Source: Gammaproteobacteria bacterium
Lineage (GTDB): Bacteria > Pseudomonadota > Gammaproteobacteria > Xanthomonadales > SZUA-5
Assembly: GCA_030430155.1 (NCBI GenBank)
Contig: JAUIFV010000028.1
Span: 1 to 38,320 of the forward strand
Direction: 5' to 3'
Length of the DNA stretch: 38,320 bases
Position 1 is the first letter of the stretch. Each line of letters opens with the position of its first letter. The notes below the pieces were generated by a model that was given only the letters and a program-made list of their open reading frames with translations, did not search any database and was not told the DNA's origin. Below are positions 2,950 through 34,834 of the stretch, in pieces. A program made the position numbers and the translations under genes.

Positions 2950-3588
2950 GTGAGCCCAGTCCCGCAATCCTGGCCGAAAGGCGAACGCATGGCGCTGATC
3001 ATCGCCGTCCTCCTCGCCTTGCTGCTCTCCGGCATCGGGCCTTTCGACCGCTTGACCTGGATGATGGAGGTGGTCTGGGTCGCGGTTGGGCTGCCGCTGG
3101 TGATCGCGATGTGGTCGCGCTTTCCGTTGACCCGGTTGCTCGGCTGGCTGCTGGCCATACACGCGATCATCTTGATCTACGGCGGTCACTACACCTATGC
3201 GCAGACGCCCCTGGGCAACTGGGTAGCCGAGCTAGTGGGGATTGAACGCAATCATTACGATCGACTCGGGCATTTCGCCCAGGGCTTCGTCCCGGCCATC
3301 CTCGCTCGGGAACTGCTGCTGCGCAAAACCCCGCTGCGACCCGGCGGCTGGCTGTTTTATCTCTGCGTCGCTGCGGCGCTCAGCTTCAGCGCATTCTTCG
3401 AGATGCTGGAATGGTGGGCAGCGCTGATCTGGGGCGGCGAGGCGGATGCCTTTCTGGCCACCCAGGGCGACATCTGGGACACCCAATGGGACATGTTCTT
3501 GGCGATGTGTGGGGCCATCATCTCGCTGCTGGTTTGCGGGCGCGTGCATGATCGGCAGTTGGGGTTGGCGGCAGGGGCGAGGGCATAG
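2950..3588 (+). CDS. YjdF/DUF2238-family integral membrane protein
   Basis: The product has 212 residues and about six hydrophobic segments. Features typical of the DUF2238 (E. coli YjdF) family include GGHYTYAQTPLG (about 78-89), RNHYDRLGHFAQGF (about 100-113) and a C-terminal EMLEWW...GDIWDTQWDM block. The function of the family is unknown. The GTG at 2950 is used here; an ATG at 2989 is an alternative. The last residues (LGLAAGARA) and the TAG stop run into the first unit of the heptamer array at 3581, so the original C-terminus may have been altered by the array. Confidence 0.8.
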   Translation: MSPVPQSWPKGERMALIIAVLLALLLSGIGPFDRLTWMMEVVWVAVGLPLVIAMWSRFPLTRLLGWLLAIHAIILIYGGHYTYAQTPLGNWVAELVGIERNHYDRLGHFAQGFVPAILARELLLRKTPLRPGGWLFYLCVAAALSFSAFFEMLEWWAALIWGGEADAFLATQGDIWDTQWDMFLAMCGAIISLLVCGRVHDRQLGLAAGARA

Positions 3589-3777
3589 GGCACAGGGCCT
3601 AGGGCTCAGGGCCCAGGGCACAGGGCCAAGGGCACAGGGCACAGGGCACAGGGCACAGGGCACAGGGCACAGGGCACAGGGCACAGGGCACAGGGCCAAG
3701 GGCACAGGGCCAAGGGCCCAGAAAAGCTGGATTCGGCATGCTCTTGAACTTCCTGGGCCCTAAGCCCTGGGCCCTAC
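3581..3777. repeat. Heptamer array: 20 in-phase GGGCNCA units plus inverted arm
   Basis: Bases 3581-3720 are exactly 20 consecutive 7-bp units with no phase slip. Most are GGGCACA, with GGGCCAA, GGGCCCA, GGGCTCA, GGGCCTA and GGGCATA variants. A 30-bp spacer follows, beginning GAAAAGCTGG. Then 3753-3777 is a reverse-complement arm (CCTGGGCCCTAAGCCCTGGG). It lies between two converging genes and contains the stop codon of the upstream one (3586-3588). The two arms could pair into a hairpin that ends transcription from both sides; that role is inferred. Confidence 0.85.
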
Positions 3778-3781
3778 GCAG

Positions 3782-5326
3782 CTAAACCCCTCTCGCCCTG
3801 GCCTTATGCCGATAGCACTGCGCGTCTGCGGCGGCCAGCGCGGCGTCGACGTTGGCCAATGTCCGGTCCAGCTCGATAACGCCGTAGCTCAGATCCAGCT
3901 TCGCACCAACGGCGTGGTCCCGTCCCAGCTGGCGAACGCGCCGGGCGAGTCTTTCGAGCAATTCCTCGACCTGCGCGTCCGGCAGATTGCTCAGCAGCAG
4001 GGCGAACTCGTCGCCGCCTACTCTGGCCGCAGTGTCGATGGCGCGGCAGCTGCTGGCGATGGCCTCGGCAACCTGCTTGAGCAGCCGGTCTCCGGCGGCA
4101 TGGCCGCCGCGGTCATTGACCACCTTGAAATGATCCAGGTCGATGTAGACCAGATGCCAGCGTCCCTCGCCGCTACGCTGGGCATTCAGCGCCGCCTGCA
4201 GACGCTGCTCGAACTCGCCGCGGTTGACCAGGCCAGTCAGCGGGTCATGTGCTGCCTGATGGGCCAGCCGCTCGGCCAGCTGCTCCAGTTCGGTGACGTT
4301 GCGTACCGCGCCGCGGTAGCCGAGAAAACGGCCGCTCTCGCCGTACACCGGACGGGCATGATTGACCAGACTCAAGGCCTCACCGCTGCGTGATATGAGC
4401 TGCGTTTGGCGCCGTATGTCCGGCTCCTGGCGGCGCATCAGGTCGACCAGATCGCTCATGTCTGGGACCGGAAAGTCCAAGTTTCGCGCGATCTGGTCCG
4501 GGCGCAGGCCAATGGCCGCGGCAGGGGAAACGCCGACGGTGGCTTCGAAGCCCTGCGAAATGTAGGTCAGCCGCAGCTGATCGTCGGTTTCCCACAGCCA
4601 GTCGCCGGCCATCGCCGCGAAATCGGCAAAGCGCGCTTGCGCCTGCTCGGCCTCGGCTCGCGCGGCGGCCTCATTGCGCGCCGCCTCGGCGGCCTGGTCG
4701 AAACTGCGAAACATCAGGCTTTGGAAGACCACGCCGGTGAATCCGTGCGCGATCGCCAACACCAATGGAATCCGATCCAATCCGGTGCGCAGGGATACCG
4801 CCGAAGGTACCAGCGGAAATTCGCCAGGCAGCTGCCGCAACGCCATCGACAGCAGCACAAGGCCTGCGCTGAGCAGCACCCACCCCACCAGTGCGATTCT
4901 TCCGCTGAGTATCACCGCCAGTGAGACCAGTATCGGGGCCGCAATGTTGACGTTGACGGCCCGGCCGCCGGAGCCCAGGGTCATTACCAGCATGGCCAGG
5001 AAGATTGCTCCGATGATCAGATTGCCGGCGTCGCCGCGTCGCCCCAACGCCGCCGCCACCCAGGGCAGGGCCAGCAGCCCCAGCGCCAGTAGCAGCAGTA
5101 CGATGCCGATACTGGAGGTCCCCCAGATCAGCTCCCAGGTGCCGAGCAAAGCGGACGGTAGCGCACTGGTGATGCTGAAGGCGACGCTGGCACGAAAGCG
5201 GAAGGCCTGGGCGACGCTGCCGTCCTGGGCCAGCCCGGGCAGCAGCCACAGCACCCGGTTCAGCGGCGAACCGCGAAGGTCGTGATGGCGCTTGCTGTGG
5301 CTTTGGTCCGATTGCTGCTCTGACAC
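3782..5326 (-). CDS. Membrane-bound PAS-GGDEF diguanylate cyclase
   Basis: The 514-residue protein makes cyclic di-GMP. About five to six hydrophobic segments occupy residues 45-205, followed by an Ala/Glu-rich coiled coil (about 208-235), a PAS domain (about 236-345) and a GGDEF domain (about 355-514). The active-site motif GGDEF is intact (437-441). A product-inhibition site RAID (428-431) lies exactly five residues before it. FKVVNDRGGHAAGD matches the substrate-binding helix. The start is GTG with no clear ribosome site. It converges on the YjdF-type gene across the heptamer array. Confidence 0.88.
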   Translation of the reverse strand: MSEQQSDQSHSKRHHDLRGSPLNRVLWLLPGLAQDGSVAQAFRFRASVAFSITSALPSALLGTWELIWGTSSIGIVLLLLALGLLALPWVAAALGRRGDAGNLIIGAIFLAMLVMTLGSGGRAVNVNIAAPILVSLAVILSGRIALVGWVLLSAGLVLLSMALRQLPGEFPLVPSAVSLRTGLDRIPLVLAIAHGFTGVVFQSLMFRSFDQAAEAARNEAAARAEAEQAQARFADFAAMAGDWLWETDDQLRLTYISQGFEATVGVSPAAAIGLRPDQIARNLDFPVPDMSDLVDLMRRQEPDIRRQTQLISRSGEALSLVNHARPVYGESGRFLGYRGAVRNVTELEQLAERLAHQAAHDPLTGLVNRGEFEQRLQAALNAQRSGEGRWHLVYIDLDHFKVVNDRGGHAAGDRLLKQVAEAIASSCRAIDTAARVGGDEFALLLSNLPDAQVEELLERLARRVRQLGRDHAVGAKLDLSYGVIELDRTLANVDAALAAADAQCYRHKARARGV

Positions 5327-9837: not shown

Positions 9838-9947
9838 AGGGCCCAGGGCACAGGGCCAAGGGCCCAGGTGTCGCAAGATACAGCTCTTCTGGGCCCTGGG
9901 CCCTTGGCCCTGTGCCCTCCGCCCTAAGCCCTCCGCCCTAAGCCCCC
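9838..9947. repeat. Heptamer hairpin between two minus-strand genes
   Basis: The left arm, 9838-9868, has GGGCCCA, GGGCACA, GGGCCAA and GGGCCCA units. A 20-bp spacer (9869-9888) separates it from the right arm, 9889-9947, which contains the exact reverse complement and then GCCCTAAGCCCTCC repeats. The right arm holds the TAG stop (9938-9940) of the GGDEF-EAL gene. The remaining 9707-9837 sequence shows no gene. Confidence 0.85.
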
Positions 9948-12805
9948 AACTGCACCTGCTGCGGCCCCCGCTGTGACCCCGACGCCAATCGAGCCCCCAA
10001 CGCCTCCGCACTGAGCGCCTTGGTAAACAAGAATCCCTGCACCACTTCGCAGCCCAGATCGGCCAGCATCTGCGCCTGTATCTCGGTTTCCACGCCTTCG
10101 GCCACCACGCTAAGGCCCAGGTCGGCGGCGAATTGGACGATGGTGCGGACGATGGCGCGATGCCGCTCGTTGCAGTCGATGTCGTGGATGAAGCCGCGAT
10201 CGACCTTGAGTCCGTCGAAGTTGCTTTCTGAAAAGGACACCAGCGAGGAATAGCCGGTGCCAAAATCGTCAACCACCAGCTTGACGCCAATCTGCTTCAA
10301 CGCCGAGAGGATCTTGTGCAGATTGCCGAGAGCACCGCGGAATACGGTCTCGGTGATTTCCAGCTGCACAGAGGCGGGCGCCACGTGGCTTTGACGCAGG
10401 CGCCGGCTGAGCTGCTCGGCGAAGTCGCTGGAGGTGAACAAACGATCGGAGATGTTCACCGACAGCTGCTTGGGGGCGTTCTCTGGATGTTGCTCCTGCC
10501 ACTGCGAAAAATGCCGCAGGGCCAACTCCAGCATGCGCAGATCGATGCCGGGCAGCATGCCCGATTCCTCTGCGACCCCCAGGAACTGCGCCGGCAGCAG
10601 TAGTCCACGGCGCGGATGGCGCCAGCGGGCCAGCGACTCGACGCCGACAATTTGCCGCGTCTGCAACGAATGCATGGGCTGGAACCAGGCCTCCAACTCG
10701 TTGCGCTCCAGGGCGAAGCGCAGCTCGGTCTCCAGCGACAGCCGCTCGCGGGCAGCGCTATGCATATGGCTGTCGAACATCGCGTGGCCGCCGCCACCCA
10801 GTGCCTTGGCGCGGAACATGGCGGTATCGGCATCGCGCATCAGATCCTCGGCCTTGCGCTCGCCGCCGCGGATCAACACGATACCGATGGAGGCGCCGGT
10901 AAAGACCTGGTGACCGCGCACCTGAAAGGGGCTGGCCAGAATCTGATTGACCGCCTTGGCGATGGCTTCAGCGCCGGCGCCATCCACCGCACTGCGGGTG
11001 AGCAGGGCGAACTCATCACCGCCATAGCGGGCAATCACCACTTTGGCGGCCAGGGCCTTGGTGATACGCGCGGAGAACTTCACCAGCAGATCGTCACCGG
11101 CAGCGTGACCCAGGCTGTCGTTGACCAGTTTGAAGCGATCCAGATCCAGCAACAGCACGCCGCGGGCCAATCCATCGACCTGACTCTGCTGCAGAGCCTG
11201 ATCCAGCTCTATCTCGAAGCTGCGCCGGCTGGGCAATCCGGTCAGGTTGTCGTGATGGGCGAGAAAGCGCAGCTCCTGCTCGGCCGCGCGCCGGGCGCTG
11301 TTGTCGAGCAGACTGCCTTCCAAGAAGCCGGGGTCGTCGTCGTCGCGGCGCACCAGCCGAGTGCTGGTCAGAGCCCAGAAACGCTCGCCGTTGCGGCGAT
11401 ATAGCTCTACCTCCTGACCGACGATCTGTCCTTCTTCGACGATGCGCTTGAGCAGCCGTTCGCGCTCCTCACGATCCACATACCACTGCGACATGTTGCC
11501 CACTTCGCGAACCATGGCTGCCGGCGTATCGAAACCGAACATCTGCGCCATGGCTTCGTTGACCTCGACCATCTGGCCGTCGCGAGTGCTCTGGAACATG
11601 CCCAGCACGGCGTGCTGAAACAGGAGTCGATAGCGTTCCTCGGCCGCTTCCAGCCGCTTCTGCTGGGCGCGCACTTCGGTGATGTCGCGCATGGTTCCGA
11701 TGGAAGCGGGGGCGCCGCGATACTCCACCGCACCGGCACGCACGGCGCACAAACGACGTTCGCCGTCACGCCGCAGCAAGTGGATCTCGTACTCCTGGGT
11801 TTCGTAGGAGCCGGCCTCACGCTGGCTGCGGCGCTCGGCCTGGGCCTTCAGATCTTCAGGGCAGACCCAGTCGAAATAGCTGGCGCCGATCATCTCCTCG
11901 GAGGTGTAGTTGAGGATCTCCCCTAGCGCATCGTTGGCGAAGACGATGCGCCCATGCTGCATCAAGAACACGCCGTCACGGGAATTTTCGACCAGATTTC
12001 GATATAGCGCTTCGCTCTGGCTGAGTGCCTGCTGGGCCTCGATCTTGTCGCTGATATCGATCAGCGTGCCTTCGATGTACAGCGGCTCGCCGCCCCCGTC
12101 GTGGACCACTCGCGCGCTCTCGGAAATCCACAGCACCGATGAATCCGGGCGGCGGATCTGCGCGCTCTGCAGCGTGATGACGCCCTGATCGAGCAGTTCG
12201 GCGCGCAGCTCGCGAGCGTGTGCGATGTCGGCGTAGGGAAAATGCTCGCTATCGGCCAGCGCCTGCAGCAGTTCCTGTGGACTCGGATAGCCGAGCAGCC
12301 GGGCCAGCGCCGGGTTGACCTCCAGCAGCTCGCCGCTGCGCGCATTGCGCCGGTAGATGCCGAAATCGGACTCCATCACCAGCGCTCTGTAGCCGTGCGC
12401 CTCGCGCTCGCGGGCGCTGGCCTCGTCGGGATAACGGCGAATGTCATTGAGCACCGCAATGACATAGCGCTGGCCCTGATAATCGATCAGATTGGCGGTG
12501 AGCAGACCATCGAGGTATTCACTTTCGCTGTGGCGGATGGCAATCGGCTCACCCACCGCGCAACCGCGCTGCACGAGCATGCTGACCACGCCTTCGCGGC
12601 TGCGCTGATCACGCCACAGACCCATCTCCATGGCCGTACGGCCGATGGCCTGCTCGGCGCTGATCCCCAACAGCGGCTCGAAGCCGGGGCTGAGCGCAAC
12701 AATCTGAGCGTCGTCCAAACGCGAAACCAAAACCAGCACGTCCGGCGAGGTGAACACCTCCACCAGCTGAGTCAACGCCGCAGGCGCGGGCACGGTTTTG
12801 GACAT
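9938..12805 (-). CDS. Four-PAS GGDEF-EAL cyclic di-GMP sensor protein
   Basis: The 955-residue protein has no obvious membrane helix. PAS-like domains occupy about 15-125, 140-255, 262-380 and 388-505; then come a GGDEF domain (about 510-675) and an EAL domain (about 690-945). YGGDEF is intact (595-599), but the inhibitory RXXD site is missing (AAKV at that position). In the EAL domain the signature reads ESL (723-725) instead of EAL, keeping the catalytic Glu. VNIS, EITE, DDFGTGYSSL, KVD and VVAEGVE are all present, so phosphodiesterase activity is likely. It may therefore both make and break cyclic di-GMP. The stop lies inside the heptamer hairpin. Confidence 0.9.
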   Translation of the reverse strand: MSKTVPAPAALTQLVEVFTSPDVLVLVSRLDDAQIVALSPGFEPLLGISAEQAIGRTAMEMGLWRDQRSREGVVSMLVQRGCAVGEPIAIRHSESEYLDGLLTANLIDYQGQRYVIAVLNDIRRYPDEASAREREAHGYRALVMESDFGIYRRNARSGELLEVNPALARLLGYPSPQELLQALADSEHFPYADIAHARELRAELLDQGVITLQSAQIRRPDSSVLWISESARVVHDGGGEPLYIEGTLIDISDKIEAQQALSQSEALYRNLVENSRDGVFLMQHGRIVFANDALGEILNYTSEEMIGASYFDWVCPEDLKAQAERRSQREAGSYETQEYEIHLLRRDGERRLCAVRAGAVEYRGAPASIGTMRDITEVRAQQKRLEAAEERYRLLFQHAVLGMFQSTRDGQMVEVNEAMAQMFGFDTPAAMVREVGNMSQWYVDREERERLLKRIVEEGQIVGQEVELYRRNGERFWALTSTRLVRRDDDDPGFLEGSLLDNSARRAAEQELRFLAHHDNLTGLPSRRSFEIELDQALQQSQVDGLARGVLLLDLDRFKLVNDSLGHAAGDDLLVKFSARITKALAAKVVIARYGGDEFALLTRSAVDGAGAEAIAKAVNQILASPFQVRGHQVFTGASIGIVLIRGGERKAEDLMRDADTAMFRAKALGGGGHAMFDSHMHSAARERLSLETELRFALERNELEAWFQPMHSLQTRQIVGVESLARWRHPRRGLLLPAQFLGVAEESGMLPGIDLRMLELALRHFSQWQEQHPENAPKQLSVNISDRLFTSSDFAEQLSRRLRQSHVAPASVQLEITETVFRGALGNLHKILSALKQIGVKLVVDDFGTGYSSLVSFSESNFDGLKVDRGFIHDIDCNERHRAIVRTIVQFAADLGLSVVAEGVETEIQAQMLADLGCEVVQGFLFTKALSAEALGARLASGSQRGPQQVQLGA

Positions 12806-12874: not shown

Positions 12875-13062
12875 GCAGGGCCCAGGGAGGAGGGCCCAGG
12901 GCCCAGGTTCGAGCGCCGGGTCATCGCGTGGGCGCGTAGGTCGTGCAAAGCGTAGCGTGCACGACGCGTTTTGGAGGAATGCGCCGCCGTCAGTAAAGGC
13001 GCCTACGGCTAGCCTATGCCCGCTGCCCTGGGCCCTAAGCCCTGTGCCCTGTGCCCTGCTTT
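12875..13062. repeat. Wide heptamer inverted repeat between dnaE and the GGDEF-EAL gene
   Basis: The left arm, 12875-12908, carries GGGCCCA and AGGAGGGCCC units. The right arm, 13021-13062, is CTGCCCTGGGCCCTAAGCCC and further CCCTGTG units. Between them lie about 112 bp that include a separate palindrome (12940-12965). No gene is seen in the 12806-13066 gap. Confidence 0.8.
12940..12965. repeat. REP-like palindrome GTCGTGCA...TGCACGAC
   Basis: An 8-bp perfect stem closes a 10-nt loop (AAGCGTAGCG), inside the spacer of the heptamer inverted repeat. It is followed by CGCGTTTTGGAGG. It looks like a dispersed extragenic palindrome; only one copy was found here. Confidence 0.5.
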
Positions 13063-16599: not shown

Positions 16600-16829
16600 G
16601 AGGGCTGAGGGCTGGGTTGAGAAGCAGGGCTGAGGGCTGAGGGCTGAGGGCTGAGAAAAGCAAAAGCGGTCGCCAGCAGAATTGTGAATACGATGACGCG
16701 CTCCAAGCGACTTCTTGATCGCGTTCACTGCGTTCAGGGCGTGGAAAGACAGAATTGGGAGGGCTGCTCCAAGGTGCCAAGGGCCTGCTCTTCCTCAGCC
16801 CTCAGCCCTCAGCCCTCAGCCCTAAACCC
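16600..16829. repeat. GGGCTGA-type inverted repeat in the dnaE-ntrC divergent gap
   Basis: The left arm, 16600-16656, holds seven GGGCTGA/GGGCTGG units. The right arm, 16794-16829, is a run of CAGCCCT. Both arms border AGAAAAGC/GGAAGAGC-like motifs on the inner side. The intervening DNA of about 140 bp shows no gene. Promoters for both divergent genes must lie in this 328-bp gap, but I could not identify convincing -35/-10 pairs. Confidence 0.8.
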
Positions 16830-18857: not shown

Positions 18858-19128
18858 CAGGAGCATCGCTTGCAAGCAAGCTCCTACGGGAGAGCGGCTA
18901 CGCCCCTACGTTCCGCCGCTGGGCCCTGAGCCCCTTTGCCCTGGGCCCTTTCTCCAGGAGCATCGCTTGCAGGCAAGCTCCTACAGGAAAACGGCTACGC
19001 CCCAACGTTCCGCCGCTGGGCCCTGAGCCCTTTGCCCTGGGCCCTTGCACCAGGAGCATCGCTTGCAGGCAAGCTCCTACAGGAAAGCGGTTACGCCCCG
19101 ACGTTCCGCCGCTGGGCCCTCAGCCCTC
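18858..19128. repeat. Composite REP plus heptamer tandem repeat, about 97-bp period
   Basis: Copies begin at 18858, 18955 and 19051 (periods 97 and 96; the third is cut short). Each unit has three parts: a REP palindrome (AGGAGCATCGCTTGCAGGCAAGCTCCT, in two segments AGGAGC...GCTCCT), a conserved linker (GGCTACGCCCC-ACGTTCCGCCGCT), and a heptamer block (GGGCCCTGAGCCC...TTTGCCCTGGGCCC). It fills the 387-bp gap between two converging genes. Spacers are repeats themselves, so this is not CRISPR. Confidence 0.85.
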
Positions 19129-24826: not shown

Positions 24827-25029
24827 AGGGCCCAGGGCCCAGGGCTTAGGGCCCAGTCTGCGCCAGTGTGGGGCAGGGCTGGGCCATCGAGTGAAGGGCC
24901 CAGGGCTCAGGGCCCAGGGCCCAGTCTGCGCTAGTGCGGAGCCGGTCCGCCGCGATGGAGGATGGACGCCGGAAGACGCCGTCGAAGCGCTGCTTTCCTG
25001 GGCCCTAGGCCCTGGGCCCTGGGCCCTCA
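24827..25029. repeat. Heptamer inverted repeat with duplicated left arm
   Basis: The left arm occurs twice: about 24827-24856 and 24895-24935. Each copy is followed by the same flank CAGTCTGCGCYAGTG, so one segment of about 68 bp has been duplicated. The right arm, 24997-25029, reads CCTGGGCCCTAGGCCCTGGG and continues in CCCTGGG units. It separates the converging TonB receptor and IclR genes and fills most of the 277-bp gap. Confidence 0.85.
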
Positions 25030-34718: not shown

Positions 34719-34785
34719 CGTGGTGTCGGTCGAAGCGGTTGTTGGGGCTCTTTCGCGGAGCGATTGGAATCGGGACATGGGACTA

Positions 34786-34834
34786 GGGCAAAGGGCCCAG
34801 GGCCCAGGGCCCAGGGCCCAGGGCCCAGGAAAGC
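34786..34834. repeat. Heptamer array between moaA and moaC
   Basis: Six GGGC-type units, mostly GGGCCCA, run from 34786 and end at the boundary GGGCCCAGGAAAGC (34821-34834). Only a forward arm is seen here, with no reverse-complement partner, although GGGCCC is itself palindromic. It lies inside an otherwise continuous moa gene run, in a 144-bp gap. Confidence 0.85.

Follow-up and report, generated by a model that had tools for sequence, protein, structure and literature searches.

The gene for a DUF2238 membrane protein (PF09997, which we take to be the family of YjdF) ends in an uninterrupted series of seven-base repeats, and this raises the question of what the series is, how it reached its length and whether it affects the protein encoded upstream. 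The locus lies within the window, that is, the whole stretch of 38,320 nucleotides that was analysed. On balance, we lean towards reading the array as a left arm, overgrown by slippage, of one copy of a dispersed palindromic element, which would have a role as a hairpin at transcript 3' ends and whose stems would be kept up.

The array and the stop codon

Twenty AGGGCNN units follow each other on the plus strand (3580-3719) in one phase and with zero slips, and TRF reported a single array at 3580-3721 (period 7, 20.3 copies, indels 0, score 200). The original prediction had described twenty phased units of the form GGGCNCA; their number and phase were confirmed, but the formula fits only 15 of the 20, with units 1, 3, 7, 17 and 19 reading GGGCATA, GGGCCTA or GGGCCAA, and the constant part of the units is AGGGC. 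A degenerate unit, AGGGGCG, is found immediately before the array at 3573, while units 8-16 (3629-3691) are nine identical copies of AGGGCAC with variant units on either side.

The overlap with the TAG stop was likewise confirmed; the codon lies across the boundary between the first two units. Since this places the stop at the outer edge of the array, with all later units downstream, growth of the array beyond it cannot alter the DUF2238 protein, contrary to what had been suggested: its C-terminus is alterable only by a change before or inside unit 1, and stop-codon switching by array growth was rejected as a likely effect. Absent from the earlier description were the partner arm in inverted orientation (3755-3775), a further six loci within the window and a genome-wide family (Table 1). 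Upstream of the DUF2238 gene, at about 2780-2846 of the window, there is also a palindrome, ATTATTCATGAACC...TTCATGAATAAT, which recurs at the orthologous place in a genome of the same genus (G001; L164 600-664) and elsewhere in the genome that carries the array (L105, near 16700).

Table 1. Coordinates of the array, its neighbours and further element copies; positions refer to the window unless a contig is named.
Feature	Position	Strand	Details
G-rich left arm, expanded	3580..3719	+	20 AGGGCNN units vs standard 4
Core/spacer	3720..3754	-	Minus-strand read AGGAAGTTCAAGAGCATGCCGAATCCAGCTTTTCT; carries family inner motif AAGAGC...GCTTTT (sequence and motif enrichment)
Inverted right arm	3755..3775	-	3 AGGGCNN units
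TAG stop of upstream gene	3586..3588	+	From sequence; formed where units 1 and 2 meet
Upstream gene, DUF2238 membrane protein	2950..3588	+	PF09997, E 1.8e-56
Convergent neighbour gene, PAS-GGDEF protein	3782..5326	-	PF00990, E 5.6e-37
Element copy	9838..9939	.	4-unit + arm, 25-bp spacer, 7-unit - arm; minus-strand gene 9938-12805 ends inside (TAG)
Element copy, long spacer	12891..13057	.	Spacer 118 bp
Element copy	16601..16823	.	AGGGCTG subtype in both arms
Three tandem 96-bp units	18858..19127	-	93% alike; each a GTAGGAGC-type palindrome joined to AGGGCNN heptads
Element copy between convergent genes	24827..25027	.	Two + arms, one - arm
Lone arm between tandem genes	34785..34826	+	6 units
ACGTTTT/AAAACGT inverted pairs, own genome	L122 6622-6722; L097 15740-15853; L264 2960-3071; L268 5669-5744 and 12597-12685

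A dispersed element at gene ends

The pattern AGGGCNNAGGGCNNAGGGC matched 45 times in the window, against 0.00 matches in 100 dinucleotide shuffles, which excludes chance. The six further AGGGCNN loci in the window are mostly inverted pairs with their G-rich strands facing each other. A search of the whole genome, which comprises 5.06 Mb in 287 contigs, for four AGGGC spaced at period 7 gave 829 overlapping matches, and the reversed control gave none; far from being rare, as originally proposed, the twenty-unit array is a length outlier of something common in its genome. The same pattern was found 143 times in G001, 8 times in G002 and 107 times in the more distant G031, with few or no matches in other genomes.

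The anatomy of the element was described from 1.27-1.52 Mb of the same genome, with 287 arms of at least two units coming from 1.27 Mb. This sample was partly drawn from contigs with matches, so that densities derived from it are biased, whereas the anatomy should not be. Most arrays share one layout: about four AGGGCNN units, a core starting with AG-RARAGC or AG-GARRTCAAGAGC, and about four inverted NNGCCCT units. Arm lengths peak sharply at four units (145 of the 287 arms), and seven arms have at least ten. Counted from the inner end, the frequency of a G-tract is 1.00, 1.00, 0.85 and 0.74 in the first four heptads, the first two values being fixed by the selection of the arms, and falls to 0.18, near background, in the fifth; the standard arm is therefore a four-heptad module. 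Neighbouring arms within 300 bp were arranged as "+-" in 80 cases and as "-+" in three, and the spacers between them fall into two size groups, of about 12-45 bp and 68-138 bp.

The inner motif RGRARRTCAANAGC occurred 88 times in this genome and 26 times in G008, a member of the same family, where the reversed control gave 0 and 1 matches, respectively; in most other genomes its numbers were near chance. Its shorter form ARAGC was present behind up to 86 of 301 arms in this genome, compared with about 6. The variable NN bases showed no covariation between partner arms of the main subtype, the signal obtained over all pairs coming from the AGGGCTG subtype; this disfavours strict selection on base pairing, and arm-to-arm copying within the main subtype was rejected on the same finding. 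Among four-unit arms genome-wide, such as AGGGCCCAGGGAATAGGGCCCAGGGCCCAG, variation is greatest in the unit next to the outermost one (AGGGNNN), and the others are mostly AGGGCCC.

Our own gene calls comprise 981 genes and place 189 arms in intergenic DNA. Of these, 120 follow a gene and read in its sense, at a median of 13 nt from the stop, and 77 sense 3' arms are within 50 nt of it. Arm pairs are enriched in convergent gaps and depleted in divergent ones: 29, 37 and 8 pairs were located in convergent, tandem and divergent gaps, which themselves number 154, 481 and 133, respectively. In 1.27 Mb, a stop codon lies within or directly at 18 arms and is TAG in 14 of the 18, compared with 41% TAG overall, so that the stop within the array at the DUF2238 gene is one instance of a recurring arrangement.

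Arm growth, relatives and other heptads

At the orthologous site in G001, where the neighbour protein is 74% identical, no array was present, and this copy would have been either gained here or lost in G001. DUF2238 orthologues in other genera likewise had no array downstream. At other loci compared with G001 (DNA about 80% identical) arms mostly occupied a common intergenic site in the two species, frequently differing in their number of units, and a few sites were occupied in one of the two only. For five locus pairs, identity was 0.76-0.78 in the arms and 0.78-0.80 in the flanks, compared with 0.58 in the spacers and 0.57 for unrelated sequence; one long spacer was still alignable (0.73). 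Inversion of the spacer between the arms was rejected, as cross-species spacers fitted the reverse complement no better than the direct strand.

The length of the array is probably due to seven-base replication slippage, which would have extended the left arm from some four units to its present twenty, because units 8-16 are identical and lie between mixed units. The site that is empty in G001 and the use of GGGAATC-type arrays as variable-number markers in Xanthomonas typing (PMC6459536, PMC8002079) agree with such growth, and in this respect the original proposal of expansion by slippage is likely to be correct. That an assembler inflated the number of units is very improbable. Although the assembly is a draft of 287 contigs, the array is interior to its contig, variant units continue beyond the nine-unit run, and other long arms exist, with 10-17 units elsewhere in this genome and 10-21 in G001.

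The design is not restricted to G-rich heptads. The genome also carries elements of another set, with (ACGTTTT)n arms and inverted (AAAACGT)n partners, mostly of two to five units, and a core reading AAAGAGC...GCTCTTTC. The pattern (CGTTTTA)3 had matches in this genome and in G002, a single match in G008 and none in the other relatives searched. In this A/T type the place matching the variable second unit of the G-rich arms is taken by a unit of eight bases, for example ACGTGATT or ACGTTGTT. In G008 the inner motif adjoins GGGACCC arms as well as GGGAAAA-type arms, and genomes of other families have GGGAATC arms that are followed in several cases by GTAAGAGC, GTCAAAGC or GGAAAAGC. For 84 arms of other genomes, the first interval behind the array contained ARAGC 15 times, compared with 1-3 times at greater distance.

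A tentative and rather doubtful extension of these observations is that a single family of gene-end palindromes runs through the Lysobacterales, with exchangeable heptads on both arms and a constant period of seven, about four units per arm, inverted layout and AARAGC core, the seven-base periodicity and the stem symmetry, rather than G-quadruplexes, being selected or enzymatically produced. The heptads (GGGCCCA, GGGACCC, GGGAATC, GGGAAAA and ACGTTTT) would then vary between lineages and even among copies within one genome, which, if true, would imply a process that writes matching heptad arms. The common inner motif offers a handle for finding the maker or binder of the elements. A different dispersed element, GGCCACCCTTCGGGCT...CATAGGGGAGGGGAGGTCAAAAGC, was observed in another family of the order (L239-L244 of G049 and L245-L247 of G043), and in several G049 copies it is followed by tandem CAAGAGC heptads.

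Possible functions and relation to known repeats

A role in the transcript 3' end is the reading we favour, with less certainty than the growth by slippage: the element may act there as a long hairpin that protects the end or aids in stopping transcription on both strands. Such a hairpin fits the position at gene ends, the "+-" polarity and the persistence of the stems while the spacers turn over; the lack of covariation between partner arms of the main subtype speaks against it. The heptad stems might be kept at a site by selection, or because the arms are created anew time and again, with turnover of the spacer. The RNA predicted for the locus folds into a hairpin of very high stability (-118.9 kcal/mol, z -4.85). 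Neither a T-run nor a consensus terminator was found within 3500-3900. Consensus terminators are scarce in this genome (8.5% with arms, 5% without), and with so few found either way there was no support for arms replacing intrinsic terminators. A known RNA family was rejected, as no Rfam model matched the locus at its gathering score and the sub-threshold hairpin matches were to animal miRNA models only.

The strongest rivals to the hairpin are a mobile palindrome and a quadruplex. The gene-end position could instead mark the sites where insertions harm least, and this is what would be expected of a MITE-like or REP-like palindrome moved by a transposase, with the arms as terminal inverted repeats and gene ends as tolerated sites. 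We consider such mobility unlikely. Hundreds of dispersed copies with a defined polarity and an inner motif, together with some sites occupied in one species only, are compatible with it, but most of the compared sites are common to G001, short spacers are unlike between copies, and the sole Y1 (RAYT-type) transposase gene found in a search for this class is flanked by GTAGGAGC palindromes and not by heptad arms. Three GTAGGAGC palindromes adjoin this gene at L301 1110-1346, and two of them enclose a GAAAGCCAGAGCGG...GTTGCTCTT stretch resembling the core of the heptad elements.

The quadruplex reading, in which four G-tracts per arm are kept for a quadruplex fold in DNA or RNA as regulatory repeats, is about equally improbable; it is the property that Rehm et al. 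2015 stressed for GGGAATC in Xanthomonas. G3N4 units and a mode of exactly four G-tracts are compatible with it, and GGGAATC oligonucleotides form quadruplexes in vitro; however, no regulatory role was found by Rehm et al. (PMC4692102), and the inverted C-rich partner competes through pairing. Since the ACGTTTT arms, with a like layout and core, contain no G-tract, what the elements have in common cannot be a quadruplex. The G-rich types may form one, but this cannot be the function that defines elements sharing this anatomy. Less probable still is a neutral by-product, in which seven-base slippage yields heptads from any seed and these survive in intergenic DNA. The prevalence of period 7 (173 of 425 tandem arrays in the sampled part of this genome) is in line with it, as is the proposal of Mrazek 2007, which PMC4679880 and PMC4692102 cite, of a match between seven bases and the contact of DNA polymerase. 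Yet the mode at four units, the 80-to-3 polarity, the common inner motif and the matching arms are left unexplained by it.

The closest known system is that of Rehm et al. 2015 (PMC4692102), who reported G-rich GGGAATC (GGGNATC) heptamers in Xanthomonas campestris and X. axonopodis, with two to 26 units, a mode of four and 70-75 convergent inverted pairs per genome. Both systems share the period of seven, GGG-initial units, the four-unit mode, a mostly intergenic scatter over the genome, convergent inverted pairs, a sense-strand position close to stop codons and a unit number that varies between species. The present elements differ in their heptad (GGGCNNA, compared with GGGAATC/GGGANTN), in having several times more matches in their genome and, relative to the repeats as described, in the common inner motif (AARAGC, GARRTCAAGAGC) and the A/T-armed ACGTTTT counterparts. 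Because the unit is GGGCNNA and GGGAATCGGGAATCGGG is absent from this genome, the element is a variant of the G-rich heptamer type that falls outside the GGGAATC family in the narrow sense.

Beggiatoaceae and some Cyanobacteria carry TAACTGA direct repeats (MacGregor 2015, PMC4679880), which are also abundant intergenic heptads and sometimes overlap stop codons. They are, however, a fixed heptad, mostly upstream of start codons and with one inverted case only, whereas the elements described here are mostly 3' of genes, form inverted pairs and have variable heptads. With REP/BIME sequences and their RAYTs they share the character of high-copy intergenic palindromes, often at gene ends, and this genome carries GTAGGAGC palindromes of its own; membership was nevertheless rejected, given that the heptad arms lack a GTAG/CGTC tag and that the single Y1_Tnp gene, a RAYT, is linked to the GTAG palindromes, its only flanking repeats.

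New in this genome are another heptad, a core motif common to genomes with different heptads, (ACGTTTT)n-armed elements alongside the G-rich ones, and arms that persist between species while short spacers turn unalignable. Of the properties of G-rich bacterial heptads, the quadruplex has attracted most attention, and one genome with and without G-tracts in like elements (AGGGCCC-type and ACGTTTT-type) constitutes a natural control. The arrays also resemble the heptad VNTR loci of Xanthomonas, where the seven-base units include GGGAATC, CGATTCC and GGGATTT and where copy number was measured to be variable among strains (PMC6459536, PMC8002079), compared with the one assembly available here. Finally, an array of about 100 GGGAATC units (695 bp) was observed in G037 (L148 1502-2197), far above any array in the genome studied here.
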